Below, piece by piece: positions 45,987 through 51,307 of a stretch of DNA of 64,000 nt. The position numbers were made by a program, and so were the translations under genes. The stretch's first letter is position 1. Every line of letters begins with the position of its first letter. Where the stretch lies: the NCBI RefSeq assembly GCF_021246445.1, contig NZ_JAJQXW010000001.1, positions 186,001 through 250,000 on the forward strand, written 5' to 3'. Source of the DNA: Rhabdothermincola salaria (lineage in GTDB: Bacteria > Actinomycetota > Acidimicrobiia > Acidimicrobiales > Acidimicrobilacustridaceae). Below the pieces are notes generated by a model. It saw only the letters and a program-made list of their open reading frames with translations. It did not search any database and was not told the origin of the DNA.

Positions 45987-46457
45987 ATGGTCGAACAGGC
46001 GAAAGAGCAGATCCGCATCGAGGCGCCGGTTGCGCGCTGCTTCGAGGTGCTCACCGACTTCGCGGCGTACCCGGAGTGGGCGGGCGACCTCAAAGAGGTC
46101 GAGGTCGTCGAGCGCGATGACGACGGGCGCGCCGTCGTGGTCGAGTTCCGAGCGGCCGCCATGGGGCGCAGCACCACCTACCAGCTGAGCTACGACTACG
46201 CCGGGGCACCCGGGCGCCTGGCCTGGGGGCTCGTCACCGGCGATCTGCCCCGCGAGCTCGACGGCGCCTACCTGCTCACCCCGGCCTCCGACGACCCGGA
46301 GGCCACCGACGTCGCCTACGAGCTGGCCGTCGACCTCGTCTATCCGATCCCCGGCTTCGTCAAGCGGCGGGCCGAGGCCAAGATCATCAAGACCGCCCTG
46401 ATCGAGCTGAAGGCTCGTGTCGAGGGCGCCCCGCGGCCCGACCTCGACGACGACTGA
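45987..46457 (+). CDS. SRPBCC (polyketide cyclase/START-like) family protein
   Basis: 156 residues. The fold is indicated by the start EQIRIEAPVARCFEVLTDFA, YPEWAGDLKEVEVVERDDDG near 28-47, and the C-terminal long helix PIPGFVKRRAEAKIIKTALI near 119-138. These proteins enclose a hydrophobic ligand cavity. GGGAGG precedes ATG 45987; TAACGT at 45939-45944 is a possible promoter. The ArsA-like ATPase gene follows within 16 bases, a neighbour pair also seen in other actinobacteria. Confidence 0.85.
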   Translation: MVEQAKEQIRIEAPVARCFEVLTDFAAYPEWAGDLKEVEVVERDDDGRAVVVEFRAAAMGRSTTYQLSYDYAGAPGRLAWGLVTGDLPRELDGAYLLTPASDDPEATDVAYELAVDLVYPIPGFVKRRAEAKIIKTALIELKARVEGAPRPDLDDD

Positions 46458-46473
46458 CGCCTGGCGCGCCCTG

Positions 46474-47634
46474 GTGCGGATCCTGCTGTTCACCGGCAAG
46501 GGCGGGGTCGGCAAGACGACCGCCGCCGCGGCCACCGCTCTGCGCTGCGCCGACGAGGGCCACCGCACCCTCGTGGTGTCCACGGACCCGGCCCACAGCC
46601 TGGCTGACGCCTACGGCCTCGCGCTCGGTGACCAGCCCGCCGCCCTCACCGGTTCGCTGTGGGGGCAACAGCTCGACGCCCGGGCGCGGATGGAGGACTC
46701 CTGGTCCGAGATCCGAGACTGGTTGCTCGAGGTGTTCGCCTGGGCGGGGGTGCAGGGGATCGAGGCCGAGGAGCTCGCCGTGGTCCCCGGACTCGACGAG
46801 GTGTTCGCGCTCGCCGACCTCGCCGACCACGCCGAGAGCGGTCGCTGGGACGTCATCGTCGTCGACTGCGCGCCGACGGCCGAGACCCTTCGCCTCCTCT
46901 CGTTGCCCGATGTGGCGGCCTGGTACATGGCCCGCCTGTTCCCGGTGAGCCGTCGGTTGAACCGGATGGTCGCGCCGGTGCTCGGACGGGTCACGGCCCT
47001 GCCCGTCGCCGGCGACGAGGTCTTCGGGGCCACCAACCGGGTCTACGAGCGCCTCCAGACCGTGCGGGGGCTGCTCGGCGATCCCGACGCCGCCAGCATC
47101 CGGTTGGTGGTGAACCCGGAGCGGATGGTCATCGCCGAGGCCCGCCGCACGGCCACCTACCTGGCGCTCTTCGGCTACGGCGTGGATGCGGTCATCGCCA
47201 ACCGGCTCCTTCCCGAGGCCATCACCGATCCGTGGTTCGACCGATGGAAGGCCGCCCACGCGGAGCACCTGGCCGCCATCCACGAGGGCTTCGCCCCCGT
47301 GCCGGTGTTCACGGTGGAACTGGCCCCCGAGGAGCCGGTGGGCCTCGAGGGGCTGCGGCGCTTCGCGGCCGAGCTCTACGGTGACGGCCGGGCCGCCGAC
47401 GTCCACCATCGGGGCCATCCGATGCGGGTCGAGACGGTCGACGGCGTCCACTCCCTCGTGCTGAGCCTGCCCTTCGGCGAGCGGGGCGAGCTCGACCTCG
47501 GCCGCCGCGACGATGAGTTGATGGTGCGGGTGGGCCCCTATCGTCGAGCCGTGGTGCTGCCCGATTCCCTGCGCGTGCGCACCGTCGTGGGGGCGAGGCT
47601 GCGAGACGGAGAGCTGGTGGTGGACTTCACATGA
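46474..47634 (+). CDS. ArsA/Get3-family ATPase with C-terminal HSP20-like domain
   Basis: 386 residues from GTG 46474. The deviant Walker A KGGVGKTT is at 8-15, the A-loop STDPAHS near 36-42 and the switch VDCAPTAETLRLL near 130. After the ATPase (to about residue 300) comes a beta-rich domain beginning MRVETVDGVHSLVLSLPF near 317, matching the ArsA HSP20-like module. It has one ATPase unit and lacks the arsenite-binding cysteines of true ArsA, so a chaperone or targeting role like Get3 is more likely than arsenic export. It is coupled to the next small gene by ATGA. Confidence 0.9.
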   Translation: MRILLFTGKGGVGKTTAAAATALRCADEGHRTLVVSTDPAHSLADAYGLALGDQPAALTGSLWGQQLDARARMEDSWSEIRDWLLEVFAWAGVQGIEAEELAVVPGLDEVFALADLADHAESGRWDVIVVDCAPTAETLRLLSLPDVAAWYMARLFPVSRRLNRMVAPVLGRVTALPVAGDEVFGATNRVYERLQTVRGLLGDPDAASIRLVVNPERMVIAEARRTATYLALFGYGVDAVIANRLLPEAITDPWFDRWKAAHAEHLAAIHEGFAPVPVFTVELAPEEPVGLEGLRRFAAELYGDGRAADVHHRGHPMRVETVDGVHSLVLSLPFGERGELDLGRRDDELMVRVGPYRRAVVLPDSLRVRTVVGARLRDGELVVDFT

Positions 47635-47978
47635 GCGACACCGGATCGGCTGATCACCGGGAGGAGCCGTCGGAGACCCCGCCGGACCCCACTGCGGACG
47701 AGACGCTGGCGTCGCTGCAGGGCGCAGCCCGACAGCTCATCGCGGCAGCCCGGGGGCTGCTCGACGCCGCCGAGGTGGCTCTCGAGGACCCCGCTCTGGT
47801 GCGCGATGCCGTGGGCACCCTCGGCGGCCTGGCCCGGGACGCGGCGCGCCTGGCGTCCGACGCCGGCCGCTCGGCCGCCCGGGGGAGCTCCGGACCCGAC
47901 CGGCCCGACGACGCCGACCAGGGCGACGAGGGCGACGAGGGCGACGGGGGTGCGGTGCAGCGCATCCCGGTCGAGTGA
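47631..47978 (+). CDS. Small acidic helical protein
   Basis: 115 residues. The disordered acidic N-terminus is followed by an Ala-rich amphipathic helical region (27-82: LQGAARQLIAAARGLLDAAE) and a low-complexity tail with DEGDEGDGG repeats. No family recognised. Its ATG overlaps the stop of the ArsA-like gene, so it is probably made with it and could be a partner of that ATPase; this is inference from coupling. Confidence 0.65.
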   Translation: MSDTGSADHREEPSETPPDPTADETLASLQGAARQLIAAARGLLDAAEVALEDPALVRDAVGTLGGLARDAARLASDAGRSAARGSSGPDRPDDADQGDEGDEGDGGAVQRIPVE

Positions 47979-48026
47979 ATCAACGCTCAACCCGAGCCAT
48001 CCGGACGCCGATTGAGTGAGGACACC

Positions 48027-50117
48027 ATGCGCCTTCTCCAGCTGACCCTCGATCCCGAACGGGATGCCGTGCTCGAGCTCCACGGCGCCATGACCGTCAT
48101 CACGGGCATGAGCGACCGCGAGCGCCAGCGCCTCATCCGCATCGTGACCGCCGTGGCCAAGGGCGAGGACCCGGGAACCCCGGGCCTCGTCGAGGCCCAC
48201 GGGGTGGTCCTGGACCTCACGTCCGAGGTCCTCGCGCTGTTGGACACCGGGGCGGACGTGGATCCGCTCGTTCGCCGACGCGACCTTCCCGGCGCCGCGC
48301 CTTCGCCCGCCGAGGACGGCGCCGACGACGCGTTCGGCTCGTCGGTCGATCCGGCGGAGGTGTTGTTGTCCTCGGCCCCGAAGGGGGCACATCCCGAGCT
48401 CGACCGGCACCGGCGCCGTCTCCACGACGCCGTCCAGACCCGTGAGGTGCTCCAGGAGGCGGCGGCCCAGGCGGCCCGCGACCTCGATGCCGCCGGGCGC
48501 GACCGGCGCCGCGCCGTCGAGCACCTCGATGGGGCCCACCAACGGGCTGCCGAACCGCTCGGTCCGGAGCACCGCACCGGGCCGGCGGGGGTCGAGGTGG
48601 CCGAGCTGGAAGCGGAGATCGCCCACATCGAAGCCGGTGTCGCCGAGCTCGAGAGCCTCGACATCCGTCCCATCGCCGTCCTGCTCGATGCCATCGAGAA
48701 CCCGGGTCCGGTGGAGGAGGTGCCGTCGCCGCGTGCGCAGGCCCTGGCCGATCGCTTCGTCGCCCTGCAAGGGCAGGTCGCAGCGTTGGAGGAGGGGCTG
48801 GAGGCCGAGGGACGGGGGCCGGTGTCGGCCATGCGCCGACTCGACGAAGCCCGGGCCGAGGTCGCCGCGGCCGAGCGCATGCGGGACCGCGCCGAGGTCA
48901 CCCCCGACGACGAAGCCGAGCTGCGCCGGGCCCACGAACGGGTCCTGGAGTCCGAGCGCAAGGCGTCGGGGCTGCGGTCACGTTCCGGCCAACGCAAGCT
49001 GGCCGACGCCCTCGCCCGCCAACAGGAGATCCTCGATCGGGTCGGCTACCCGACCTGGAGCGCGTTCATCATGGGCGCCAGCCTCATGGGGGCCGACCCT
49101 GCCGGTGAGGAGCGGTTGGCCGCCGCCCAGGCCGACCTCGAGGCGGCCGAGGCCCACTGGGTCGAGATCAGTGCCGCGTTGGAGGCCGACCCCGATCACC
49201 ACGCGCTGCTCGACGAGCTCGAGCAGGTCGAGCTGGACGCGGTCGGACTGTTGCTGGAACGGGGCATCGGGGTGCCCGACGAGCGCAACGGCCTGGAAGA
49301 GACGCTGCGTGCCCTGCGCGAGCCGAAGCACGAGGTCGACCCCACCGAGCTGGTCGACGCCCTCGCCTTCCACCTCACCAGCATCGGCATGGACCTCGGG
49401 GAGATGGCCACCGACCCCGAGCACGTCCGGCGGGTCGCAGGCGCCTTCCTCGAAGAAGCGGCCGGCATCAGGGATCGGATCGATGAGCTCGGTGTCGAGC
49501 GTCGTCGCCTCGAGGCCCGGCTGGCCGACGCCCGGTCGCGGGCCGAAGCCGAGGCCTGGGCCGCGCTCGAGGCCTCCGTCGAGATGGCCGATCCCGGTGA
49601 GGCCACGCTGGCCGAGCTCGAAGAGGCGCTCGCCGAGGCCCGGCGTCGCGAGGACGACCTGGCCGAGGTGCTCGAGGCTCGTGAGGCCCTGCTCGAGACC
49701 GCGGTGGACTCCGAACGGCAGGCCCGCGAGCAGGCCCTGTCCGTGGCCCGGTCGCTGCGCAACGCGTCCCCGGCTGCCGGCGAGGGTGGGTCCGACGGGT
49801 CGTCCGACCCGGGCACCGTGCGCCCCGGCTGGTCCGAGATCGACCCCGAGGCCATCGAGTTCTATCTGCTGGCCCGCCTGGCGGCCCAGCGCCAGGTCTC
49901 CTACTCGGGCTCGGTGCCGGCGCTCGTCGACGACGCCCTGGCCGGGGTGCCGCAGGACTCGGTGCGGCGGGTGCTCGACGGGCTCGCCCGGATGTCCGCC
50001 GCCGTGCAGGTGGTGTACCTCACCGATGATCCGTCGGTGCTGGCCTGGGCCCGGGAACACCCCGACACCGCGGCCGTGGTGTCGTGGTCGTCGGCGGTGG
50101 CCGAGACACGCGCCTGA
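48027..50117 (+). CDS. SMC-like coiled-coil protein with degenerate ATPase heads
   Basis: 696 residues. The N-terminal strand pattern (LQLTLDPERDAVLELHGAMT, then VITGMSDRERQ) matches the start of SMC/RecN/AAA ATPases, but where GxxGxGKST should stand there is GMSDRERQRL, so Walker A is lost. Long coiled coils cover about 125-255, 275-330 and 470-590. The C-terminus has a Walker B-like PALVDDALAG near 635 followed by a QVVYLTDD strand, as in SMC heads. It is probably a structural or regulatory relative. ATG 48027 has GTGAGGA. Biological role unknown. Confidence 0.7.
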   Translation: MRLLQLTLDPERDAVLELHGAMTVITGMSDRERQRLIRIVTAVAKGEDPGTPGLVEAHGVVLDLTSEVLALLDTGADVDPLVRRRDLPGAAPSPAEDGADDAFGSSVDPAEVLLSSAPKGAHPELDRHRRRLHDAVQTREVLQEAAAQAARDLDAAGRDRRRAVEHLDGAHQRAAEPLGPEHRTGPAGVEVAELEAEIAHIEAGVAELESLDIRPIAVLLDAIENPGPVEEVPSPRAQALADRFVALQGQVAALEEGLEAEGRGPVSAMRRLDEARAEVAAAERMRDRAEVTPDDEAELRRAHERVLESERKASGLRSRSGQRKLADALARQQEILDRVGYPTWSAFIMGASLMGADPAGEERLAAAQADLEAAEAHWVEISAALEADPDHHALLDELEQVELDAVGLLLERGIGVPDERNGLEETLRALREPKHEVDPTELVDALAFHLTSIGMDLGEMATDPEHVRRVAGAFLEEAAGIRDRIDELGVERRRLEARLADARSRAEAEAWAALEASVEMADPGEATLAELEEALAEARRREDDLAEVLEAREALLETAVDSERQAREQALSVARSLRNASPAAGEGGSDGSSDPGTVRPGWSEIDPEAIEFYLLARLAAQRQVSYSGSVPALVDDALAGVPQDSVRRVLDGLARMSAAVQVVYLTDDPSVLAWAREHPDTAAVVSWSSAVAETRA

Positions 50118-50185: not shown

Positions 50186-51307
50186 GTGGCCCCCATCACC
50201 GAAGCCGCAGTCAAGGATCTGGCCGCGATCCGCAGCACCGCCAGCCCGGTCGTGTCCGTGTACCTCGACGTCGACGGACGCCGGCAGATCCTGCGTCAGG
50301 ACGTCGAGCGGCAGTTCGAGCGCCTCGTCCGCGAGAGCGCCGGTCATCGCGACCAGGAGCCGGCGCCGGCCGACCTGGCTCGGGTCGAGGACTTCCTGAC
50401 CACCGACTTCGACCGCTCGGGGGTTCGTGGGCTGGCCATCTTCGTCTGCGGTGAGCTCGACCTGTGGGAGGTGCAACCCCTCCCGATGGCGGTGGCCCCT
50501 CAGCTCCACGTCAACCAGAGCCCGGCCGTGGCCCAGCTCGAGGCCGTGGTGCAGGAGCTCGAGCCGCTCGGCTTGTTGCTCGTCGACCGCCAGCGGGCCC
50601 GGATGTTCGTGTACCACCTCGGTGAGCTCGTCGACCGCACGGAGCTCTTCGAGCAGCTGCCGCGCAACGACTTCGACCGCCACGACGACGCCTCTCGCGG
50701 GGCCGACCGGTACGACCACCACGTCGACGAAGCGGCGCTGCAACACCTGCGCCACGCCGCCGAGGTGGCCTTCAGTCTGTTCCAGGACCACGGCTTCACC
50801 CATCTGGCCATCGGTGGCCCCGACGACCTGATGAACACCGTCGAGGGCCTTCTGCACCCGTACCTGCGCGAAGGCCTCTGCGGGCGGGTGGGCCTGTCGG
50901 CCGCGGCATCCGACTCAGAGGTGCTGGCCGCCGCGCTCGAGGTCGAGCACGCGGTCGAGCGCGCTCGGGAGGAGGCGCTCGTGCAACGCCTCCGCGACGC
51001 GGTGGGCGCCGACAACCGAGGCACCGCCGGCCTCGTGCCGGTCATGGCCGCGCTGGCCGAGCGACGCGTCGCCCACCTGCTGGTCTCGCAGGGCTACCAC
51101 GAGGTGGGCTGGCGCTGCCCCTCGTGCGACGGGCTCTTCGCCAAGGGCCCCACCTGCCCGGTCGACGCCGCCGAGATGTCCCACCTCGACGACGTCGTCG
51201 AGGAGGCGGTGCAGCACGCCCTCACCCACGGCGCCAAGGTCGAAGTGTGCGTGGGCAACGCCGACCTCGACGTCATGGGCCGCATCGGTGCGCTGTTGCG
51301 CTACTGA
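50186..51307 (+). CDS. baeRF-type (eRF1/Vms1-like) protein with zinc ribbon
   Basis: 373 residues. The order of domains resembles the bacterial archaeo-eukaryotic release factor (baeRF) families: an N-terminal domain (VVSVYLDVDGRR near 21), a central domain (LLLVDRQRARMFVYHLGELV near 131) and a C-terminal domain with a CPSC...C zinc ribbon near 312-326. No GGQ peptidyl-hydrolysis motif is visible. Some relatives act in ribosome rescue, but the role of this subgroup is not settled. GTG 50186 has AGGAGG, and TACGAT about 30 bases upstream is a likely promoter. Confidence 0.72.
   Translation: MAPITEAAVKDLAAIRSTASPVVSVYLDVDGRRQILRQDVERQFERLVRESAGHRDQEPAPADLARVEDFLTTDFDRSGVRGLAIFVCGELDLWEVQPLPMAVAPQLHVNQSPAVAQLEAVVQELEPLGLLLVDRQRARMFVYHLGELVDRTELFEQLPRNDFDRHDDASRGADRYDHHVDEAALQHLRHAAEVAFSLFQDHGFTHLAIGGPDDLMNTVEGLLHPYLREGLCGRVGLSAAASDSEVLAAALEVEHAVERAREEALVQRLRDAVGADNRGTAGLVPVMAALAERRVAHLLVSQGYHEVGWRCPSCDGLFAKGPTCPVDAAEMSHLDDVVEEAVQHALTHGAKVEVCVGNADLDVMGRIGALLRY

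Follow-up and report, generated by a model that had tools for sequence, protein, structure and literature searches.

SMC (structural maintenance of chromosomes) and Rad50 proteins are understood as ATP-gated machines, and the Walker A loop is present throughout the ABC (ATP-binding cassette) ATPases. No Walker A-less SMC/Rad50 family in the bacteria considered here was found described in the PMC literature, as judged by the titles and abstract starts of the top-ranked papers. SMCL-1 of Caenorhabditis is described as an SMC-type head, predicted to be without ATPase activity, that regulates an SMC complex, and its account places it in some Caenorhabditis species only (PMC5373644). A survey of archaeal candidates reports that 13 of 111 were discarded for divergence, for being without Walker A, or for being without Walker B and signature motifs (PMC9389158), so that proteins of this sort may have been overlooked elsewhere. 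Here we analyzed a gene at positions 48027-50117 of a 64,000-nt stretch of Rhabdothermincola salaria DNA (contig NZ_JAJQXW010000001.1, 186,001 to 250,000), referred to below as the window, which an initial annotation made from the sequence had read as an SMC-like pseudo-ATPase. Sequence comparisons and a predicted structure suggest that this gene, named class A below, probably encodes a member of a Rad50/YhaN-type coiled-coil family with lost nucleotide binding that would act as an ATP-independent scaffold or regulator. By its sequences this is an established family rather than a broken gene, because the same loss recurs in related bacteria in up to three versions that separated long ago.

Loss of the Walker A loop and the ABC signature

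The frame at 48012-50117 on the plus strand was open, and the ATG at 48027 matched the start of the relatives in the alignment, which gave a protein of 696 amino acids (aa). Its parts, assigned with the help of an AlphaFold2 (AF2) model, were as follows.

48027..50117, plus strand: class A putative pseudo-ATPase gene, 696 aa (stop codon 50115-50117 included), ATG aligned with the start of relatives
48027..48296, plus strand: N-lobe of the ABC-type head, residues 1-90 (AF2 strands and helix; N-lobe profile A4; hhalign to P-loop N-lobes 95.2%)
48105..48134, plus strand: Walker A loop position, GMSDRERQRL, residues 27-36 (Arg33 at the place of Lys; AF2 strand 22-26, then helix 30-44)
48351..49766, plus strand: long helical arm, residues 109-580 (AF2 secondary structure)
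49044..49076, plus strand: mid-arm motif GYPTWSAFIMG, residues 340-350 (conserved in class A proteins near to that of the window)
49839..50102, plus strand: C-lobe of the head, residues 605-692 (AF2; C-lobe profile; hhalign to P-loop C-lobes 99.3%)
49914..49940, plus strand: Walker B-like strand VPALVDDAL, residues 630-638 (sequence and family alignment)
50004..50033, plus strand: strand and switch region VQVVYLTDDP, residues 660-669, followed by Trp674 (sequence and family alignment)

The sequence GMSDRERQRL did stand at the Walker A place, as the initial annotation had claimed, and no match to the pattern [AG]xxxxGK[ST] was found along the whole window protein. The Walker B-like VDDAL near the C-terminus and the long coiled coils were recovered as well, the former within VPALVDDAL and the latter as long helices in the middle of the AF2 model. 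The ABC signature LSxG was absent before Walker B, where the window protein reads WSEID, and the Walker B Asp was followed by a second Asp at the place of the catalytic Glu. The Asp in VQVVYLTDDP presumably occupies the place of the H-loop His of ABC proteins. There was no Cys in the 696-aa translation and hence no CxxC zinc hook. The mid-arm motif, searched as a loose pattern, occurred in 24 of the 53 frames labelled A (three of which were repeats of other loci), in 2 of 15 labelled B and in 0 of 41 labelled C.

The same loss was found in the relatives. A search with the window protein through 198 genomes of its order recovered relatives in 34, and none of the 41 open frames taken from the surroundings of relatives had an N-lobe with the Walker A pattern, which matched in these frames only twice, both times in the arm, ~290 and ~325 residues in. 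Separate profiles for the N-lobe (A4, 34 rows) and the C-lobe (A5, 35 rows) identified 109 frames that matched one or both at a domain E of 0.01, 98 of them matching both. After removal of the repeats L109, L116 and L118, 101 N-lobes and 101 C-lobes were aligned, the window protein included, and 100 N-lobes covered the Walker A site, that of L110 starting behind it. None of these 100 carried GK[ST] at the site (locus L046 has Lys followed by Glu), which established that the missing P-loop is shared among homologues. In the family the strand turns tightly into the helix at this site, the commonest form being G-[LVM]-x-x-x-x-R, with Arg in the Lys column in 86/101 N-lobes, the first Gly in 85/101, and the His of a His-Pro (HP motif) directly before the strand in 92/101.

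Other parts of the head were kept to differing extents. The Walker B Asp was present in 82 of the 101 C-lobes, with Asp (56) or Glu (29) as the next residue, and the Gln before the last strand and the Trp after it were present in 98 and 97, respectively. The ABC signature pattern matched only 1/101 family C-lobes, apparently by chance, compared with 25/28 in the relatives that retained a P-loop; the remaining three of these relatives show LSLGA, LSFGA and LSVGA by eye.

Head fold and relation to P-loop ATPases

Searches with single sequences provided no significant link to SMC heads, and the likeness of the head was therefore tested by relatives, profiles and structure. For the window protein, Pfam matches up to E 10 were noise only, with PF13514 (YhaN/AAA_27) not among them, the best NCBIfam match (TIGR02169, E 0.0013) covered the coil only and stayed below the cut-off, and the PDB sequence search returned nothing significant. 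PHROGs and PADLOC searches gave no significant head match; in PADLOC, LmuB weakly matched the arm of the window protein (E 6.1e-6). Pfam scans of six relatives likewise gave no family over cut-off, except for the baeRF part of a gap-spanning frame, L062. A protein consisting of the head only, L047, had weak matches to SMC_N in Pfam (E 0.028) and to an SbcC-like entry in the PHROGs and PADLOC searches (E 0.054). Given the absent Pfam and NCBIfam matches, members of the family are probably annotated as hypothetical proteins.

Comparison by hhalign of separately aligned profiles of the family and its P-loop relatives gave 95.2% for the N-lobes (E 2.7e-8) and 99.3% for the C-lobes (E 2.3e-20), and the reversed, shuffled and crossed controls gave 0.1-0.6%. 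The comparison placed the GMSDRERQRL site against the P-loop of the ATPases. As judged from these profiles, both lobes are related to P-loop ATPases of the YhaN/Rad50 type.

The AF2 model of the window protein, calculated from an alignment with 11 rows, had a mean predicted local distance difference test score (pLDDT) of 83.1 and a predicted TM-score (pTM) of 0.34; in blocks of ten residues, pLDDT was 74-91 in the N-lobe and 64-93 in the C-lobe. The model showed an ABC-type head built from both ends of the protein with long helices between them, and at the Walker A site the strand 22-26 and the helix 30-44 left little space for a phosphate loop. VIA structure alignment put the model on the heads of SMC, Rad50, AriA and PtuA, the best match being the Thermotoga maritima SMC head 1e69_A (Z 11.9, root-mean-square deviation (rmsd) 5.6 Å over 172 residues), with 8v49_B (Z 10.9, rmsd 3.5 over 157 residues) and 5h68_A (Z 10.6, rmsd 3.7 Å over 168 residues) also matched. 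Arm-less ABC domains were matched too, as with FtsE 6z4w (Z 9.9, rmsd 4.3 over 158 residues), and a purely helical match, 8auc_B (Z 10.2), covered the arm alone; families outside the VIA listing are not excluded as structural matches. Foldseek returned two matches below 0.001, both Rad50 chains, with the best at E 7.0e-7 (7zr1_C). Residues 205-450 folded alone in AF2 with a pLDDT of 87.4, and in Foldseek this model had no PDB match at E 0.001 or better, so that a hinge is neither shown nor excluded; the unmatched model is no proof of a new fold.

These results refined the initial annotation. The SMC/RecN head strands that it had recognized were supported by profiles and structure, and not by the single-sequence searches. 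Neither of the two outcomes that it had named as refuting, a predicted structure without an ABC-type head or homologues with an intact P-loop, was obtained. Kinship with SMC held at the level of the superfamily, but the nearest P-loop relatives found were of the YhaN/Rad50 type (C-lobe E ~1e-14 within one genome), the SMC-sized frames reaching only E ~2e-5 to 1e-3 with the N-lobe profile. The loss includes the signature as well as the loop, and a loss of ATP binding would follow from sequence and fold.

Distribution, origin and gene neighbourhood

The N-lobe profile matched 51 of the 198 genomes of the order at E 1e-5 or better, and its matches at E 2e-5 to 1e-3 were mostly SMC-sized frames with a few divergent family members. 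At E 1e-5 or better the profile matched five of 396 genomes sampled from the phylum, and each of the five belonged to the order of the window genome. Nine of ten relatives in database records were actinobacterial (Acidimicrobiales, Acidimicrobiia, Microthrixaceae, Actinomycetota and the like). The tenth, L117, bears the title Acidobacteria, is very divergent and matched over residues 204-394; it may represent the family in another phylum or may result from a binning error.

The family splits into three clades, A, B and C, of which the window genome carries A and C; the class A protein, which the initial annotation had considered uncommon in this neighbourhood, is not a lone oddity and is one of three old paralogues that make up the family. 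A tree computed from 91 family rows and 28 P-loop rows by a quick method without bootstrap, with nine P-loop columns removed, divided the two sets by one branch with a support of 100 in the Shimodaira-Hasegawa-like approximate likelihood ratio test (SH-aLRT). Within the family the support was 95 for clade B (15 rows), 96 for the clade around A (39) and 91 for the clade around C (37), with the caveats that two long rows join, that seven P-loop rows are unusual in composition and that the division between the labels A and C is imperfect. In the 52 genomes with family rows, where class A was assigned by default, the sets were A+B+C in 9, A+C in 15, A+B in 2, B+C in 2, and single or unclear in 24.

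The second Walker A-less paralogue of the window genome, of class C, lies at ~466-1728 of L149 (contig C6), by genes for tRNA-Thr and tRNA-Met. Two class A-like genes stand in tandem at L056:2884-5772 (genome G172) and could form a heteromer. Three class A proteins from one genus (L047, L048 and L051) consist of the head only, with 190-191 aa and no arm.

Among the matches of the C-lobe profile were also ATPases that retain an intact GPNEAGKS-like loop and an LSxGT signature (E ~1e-14 in one genome), and some of the P-loop relatives match PF13514 (for example a frame of G040, E 5.1e-62). The P-loop set was drawn from 33 loci (L152-L168, L283-L298), the two SMC-sized frames of the window genome included, and comprised 28 rows with both P-loop and C-lobe. 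C-lobe matches without a P-loop in the frame were L288, at a contig end, and L293. The latter (G023 contig C4) is an 885-aa frame with a family-like C-lobe and no P-loop found, in a genome that also has a head-only class A form. The C-lobe profile gave no row for the SMC-sized frames L291 and L292, even when the limit was raised to E 10, which is a point against a close tie to SMC. When the family and its P-loop relatives were aligned together, 28/28 P-loop rows had the first Gly of the loop in the Gly27 column. We infer that the loop was lost rather than gained, because it is present throughout the ABC ATPases.

The ratio of nonsynonymous to synonymous substitution rates (dN/dS), obtained by a simple counting method, was 0.31-0.56 in 9/9 pairs of relatives from classes A, B and C. 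The sequences thus indicate purifying selection on close relatives, in a family that is maintained and not tightly constrained.

The window gene is surrounded by the following genes.

45987..46457, plus strand: SRPBCC-fold protein, the most constant upstream neighbour (Pfam Polyketide_cyc2, E 6.8e-13)
46417..47634, plus strand: ArsA/Get3-type ATPase with a GKGGVGKT loop and a C-terminal HSP20-like domain (Pfam ArsA, E 3.2e-81; HSP20-like, E 1.4e-16)
47631..47978, plus strand: small protein of 115 aa, overlapping the ArsA gene by 4 bases (no significant Pfam match, best E 0.25)
50186..51307, plus strand: baeRF family 10 gene with a GTG start behind AGGAGG (Pfam E 2.1e-22)

The start codon of the ArsA gene is uncertain at this locus, where the gene stands in a row of same-strand genes with the SRPBCC gene. 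Five neighbours scanned by Pfam were assigned to SRPBCC, ArsA, no family (the 115-aa protein), baeRF and ROK, the first four in agreement with the neighbours named in the initial annotation; of the neighbours, the PADLOC search covered ArsA alone. Against the NCBIfam model for ribosome hibernation factor, the window baeRF gene scored 73 bits (E 2.2e-20), with a cut-off of 480.

Class A stands in a conserved gene order, which was followed at 24 loci by BLAST with the neighbours of the window gene (E 1e-4). SRPBCC was present at 22 of them (~4 kb off in L052), the other two being cut by contig ends on that side; ArsA was found at 15/24 (two of the nine loci without it, L042 and L049, being cut by contig ends) and baeRF at 17/24. 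The uncut loci L044, L060 and L064 kept the putative pseudo-ATPase without ArsA and baeRF. By this comparison of sequences both neighbours are dispensable. A functional coupling to ArsA was weakened as a candidate by its presence at only 15/24 loci, and an apparent class A-baeRF fusion at L062:4917-7289 was rejected, as its frame runs across a stretch of N. Identity to the window sequence was 74-90% for the aminotransferase, at those of the loci where it was found, and 24-56% over the aligned parts for the class A relatives, indicating that class A evolves faster than its neighbours.

Class C adjoined divergently oriented tRNA-Thr and tRNA-Met genes in all 12 loci scanned, out of ~40 with the class C label and with L149 of the window genome included, and EF-Tu followed the tRNA pair in L075. 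Class C genes often start ~450-650 bases from a contig end (L149, L150, L229, L232, L236, L241, L258), and the EF-Tu region of L075 may be a repeat that breaks assemblies. The neighbours of class B in the scanned loci were flavin reductase, beta-lactamase-fold hydrolase, FtsH-like and sugar-isomerase genes.

Predicted role, alternatives and comparison with known systems

A head altered in this way would no longer bind or hydrolyse ATP, and its remaining Walker B strand would be structural. Without ATP binding there would be no ATP-driven engagement of heads, and the protein would be a coiled-coil hairpin with a protein-binding head, and would serve as a scaffold that needs no nucleotide or regulate another complex; its partner would be engaged or released by something other than ATP. 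Because several genomes keep two to three paralogues and three relatives have the 190-aa head alone, the essential interaction, and with it the function of the protein, probably resides in the head. The head would most likely pair with a second head, either from a paralogue or from a true ATPase, or else with a non-SMC partner. We put forward, tentatively, the wider possibility of a nucleotide-free SMC/Rad50-type system, in which the paralogues A, B and C with their ATP-dead heads would build coiled-coil assemblies, homo- or heteromeric, as tethers for DNA, membrane or ribosomes, with a pairing of heads that is either constitutive or controlled by a ligand. To our knowledge, no such complex is known in which every subunit is without the Walker A loop.

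Several points weigh against loss of nucleotide binding and a scaffold role, both of which are read from sequence and predicted fold. The conserved Arg could, with the Walker B Asp, make up a nucleotide pocket of modified type. Since P-loop-less sequences, most of them among the rows counted, went into both profiles, loop-bearing members may stay hidden; the C-lobe search did recover P-loop proteins, but the tree took only 28 of them. Since the P-loop set was picked by its C-lobe match, the 99.3% of the C-lobes is partly selection, the 95.2% of the N-lobes being independent. On the structural side, the AF2 alignment held 11 rows and pTM was 0.34, the Foldseek TM-scores were 0.15-0.17 over the whole chain including the long arm, and VIA Z values below ~13 may, by the warning of the tool, reflect a common arrangement in mostly helical models. 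The dN/dS values were moderate and came from nine pairs of relatives other than the window gene, without a neighbour-gene yardstick. Finally, among 20 further genomes, anchored on the aminotransferase and picked for having shown no class A gene there, 17 had no gene at the syntenic position, the neighbours being, by their coordinates, too close together to leave room for it, which makes it dispensable in many lineages; of the other three, L318 was without the gene order, and L315 (N-lobe E 7.6e-5, C-lobe E 3.5e-5) and L323 (N-lobe only, E 3.9e-5) carried a divergent copy in the right place.

The alternative that survived best, though we regard it as rather unlikely, is that the protein is a degenerate half of a composite ATPase, whose head pairs with an intact head of the chromosomal SMC or of another ABC ATPase and shares or blocks its site in a dominant-negative manner. 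The Walker B Asp in 82/101 C-lobes and the existence of head-only forms would agree with such pairing, as would the SMC-sized proteins of the window genome that match AAA_23 and the precedent of SMCL-1, described as a head that regulates condensin (PMC5373644). However, the signature that would complete the site of the partner was found in the 1/101 apparent chance match only, PF13514 matches in the window genome just two SMC-sized frames (1188 and 1170 aa), and no SMC-type ATPase gene was present among the five Pfam-scanned neighbours of the window gene.

Gene neighbourhood raised the alternative of a translation or ribosome hibernation factor, which we consider improbable. It would explain baeRF at 17/24 class A loci, the tRNA genes beside class C in 12/12 scanned loci, and EF-Tu in L075, but not the 7/24 class A loci where baeRF was not found, nor L305, L308, L311 and L316, which keep baeRF at the place without class A; class B has different neighbours, and the apparent baeRF fusion in L062 spans a run of N.

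It is very doubtful that the head retained residual nucleotide binding with changed chemistry, in which Arg33 in place of the Walker A Lys, together with Asp635, would bind ATP, a different nucleotide or some phosphorylated ligand. The model has a collapsed loop at this site, with the strand running to residue 26 and the helix starting from 30, and the signature is lost. The conservation of the Arg (86/101) and of the HP-motif His (92/101) in the N-lobes and of the Asp (82/101) in the C-lobes favours this alternative, as does an association between the Arg33 and Asp635 columns over 96 rows (Fisher p 2.5e-4, without tree correction). A coupling of the two residues was nevertheless rejected as a candidate, since the tree provided 6 independent pairs (1.6 with, 0.1 against, 4.3 no difference), which showed the same trend and were too few to reach significance.

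A chance likeness of an unrelated coiled-coil protein to the ABC head would accord with the lack of significant head matches by single sequence in Pfam or PDB and with Z values below the caution line of the tool for helical models, but it is hardly credible in view of the profile comparison with its controls and the placement of both lobes on heads and arm-less ABC domains. Damage to the gene in the window genome only is refuted by the shared loss (the loop in 0/100 N-lobes covering the site), the open frame and the dN/dS below 1 in 9/9 pairs of relatives.

An ATP-independent scaffold or regulator thus remains our preferred reading. Since the family retained the head fold, duplicated early and persisted after the loss of loop and signature, the question arises which functions of the head (dimerising, partner binding, DNA binding) need no ATP, and the natural 190-aa head-only versions make this question testable with a small protein.

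Compared with known systems, the family is closest to YhaN/AAA_27-type and related Rad50-like ATPases, to which the nearest P-loop relatives found belong (among L152-L168 and L283-L298). It shares with them a head of N- and C-lobes around a long middle, and a C-lobe of the form PLxLDDxxxxxD...QVIxxT; the 28 relatives used have GPNEAGKS-like Walker A loops and the LSxG signature, whereas the family has neither. Rad50/SbcC has the same head fold but differs by its Walker A and signature, by the zinc hook that the Cys-free window protein cannot form, and by the Mre11/SbcD-like gene, which was not seen among the five scanned neighbours. Chromosomal SMC likewise shares the head fold (best VIA match 1e69_A), with weak N-lobe profile similarity (E ~2e-5 to 1e-3), but the SMC-sized frames of the same genome have 1170-1188 aa compared with 696 aa for the window protein, which is also without Walker A and signature.

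SMCL-1 is described as being without coil and hinge, as are the head-only class A forms, but it retains Walker A, its losses being those of the signature and of the Walker B glutamate, whereas the window family loses Walker A (PMC5373644). LmuB of Lamassu, likewise Rad50-like and of similar length (~650 aa), is described as having a generally changed Walker B (E to Q), but its putative ATP binding is reported to be essential where tested (PMC10586767), and no LmuA-like gene was found among the five window neighbours scanned by Pfam. Because the two defining ATP motifs fail, the family is not classed as an SMC, Rad50 or YhaN ATPase; its descent is that of the coiled-coil ABC superfamily.

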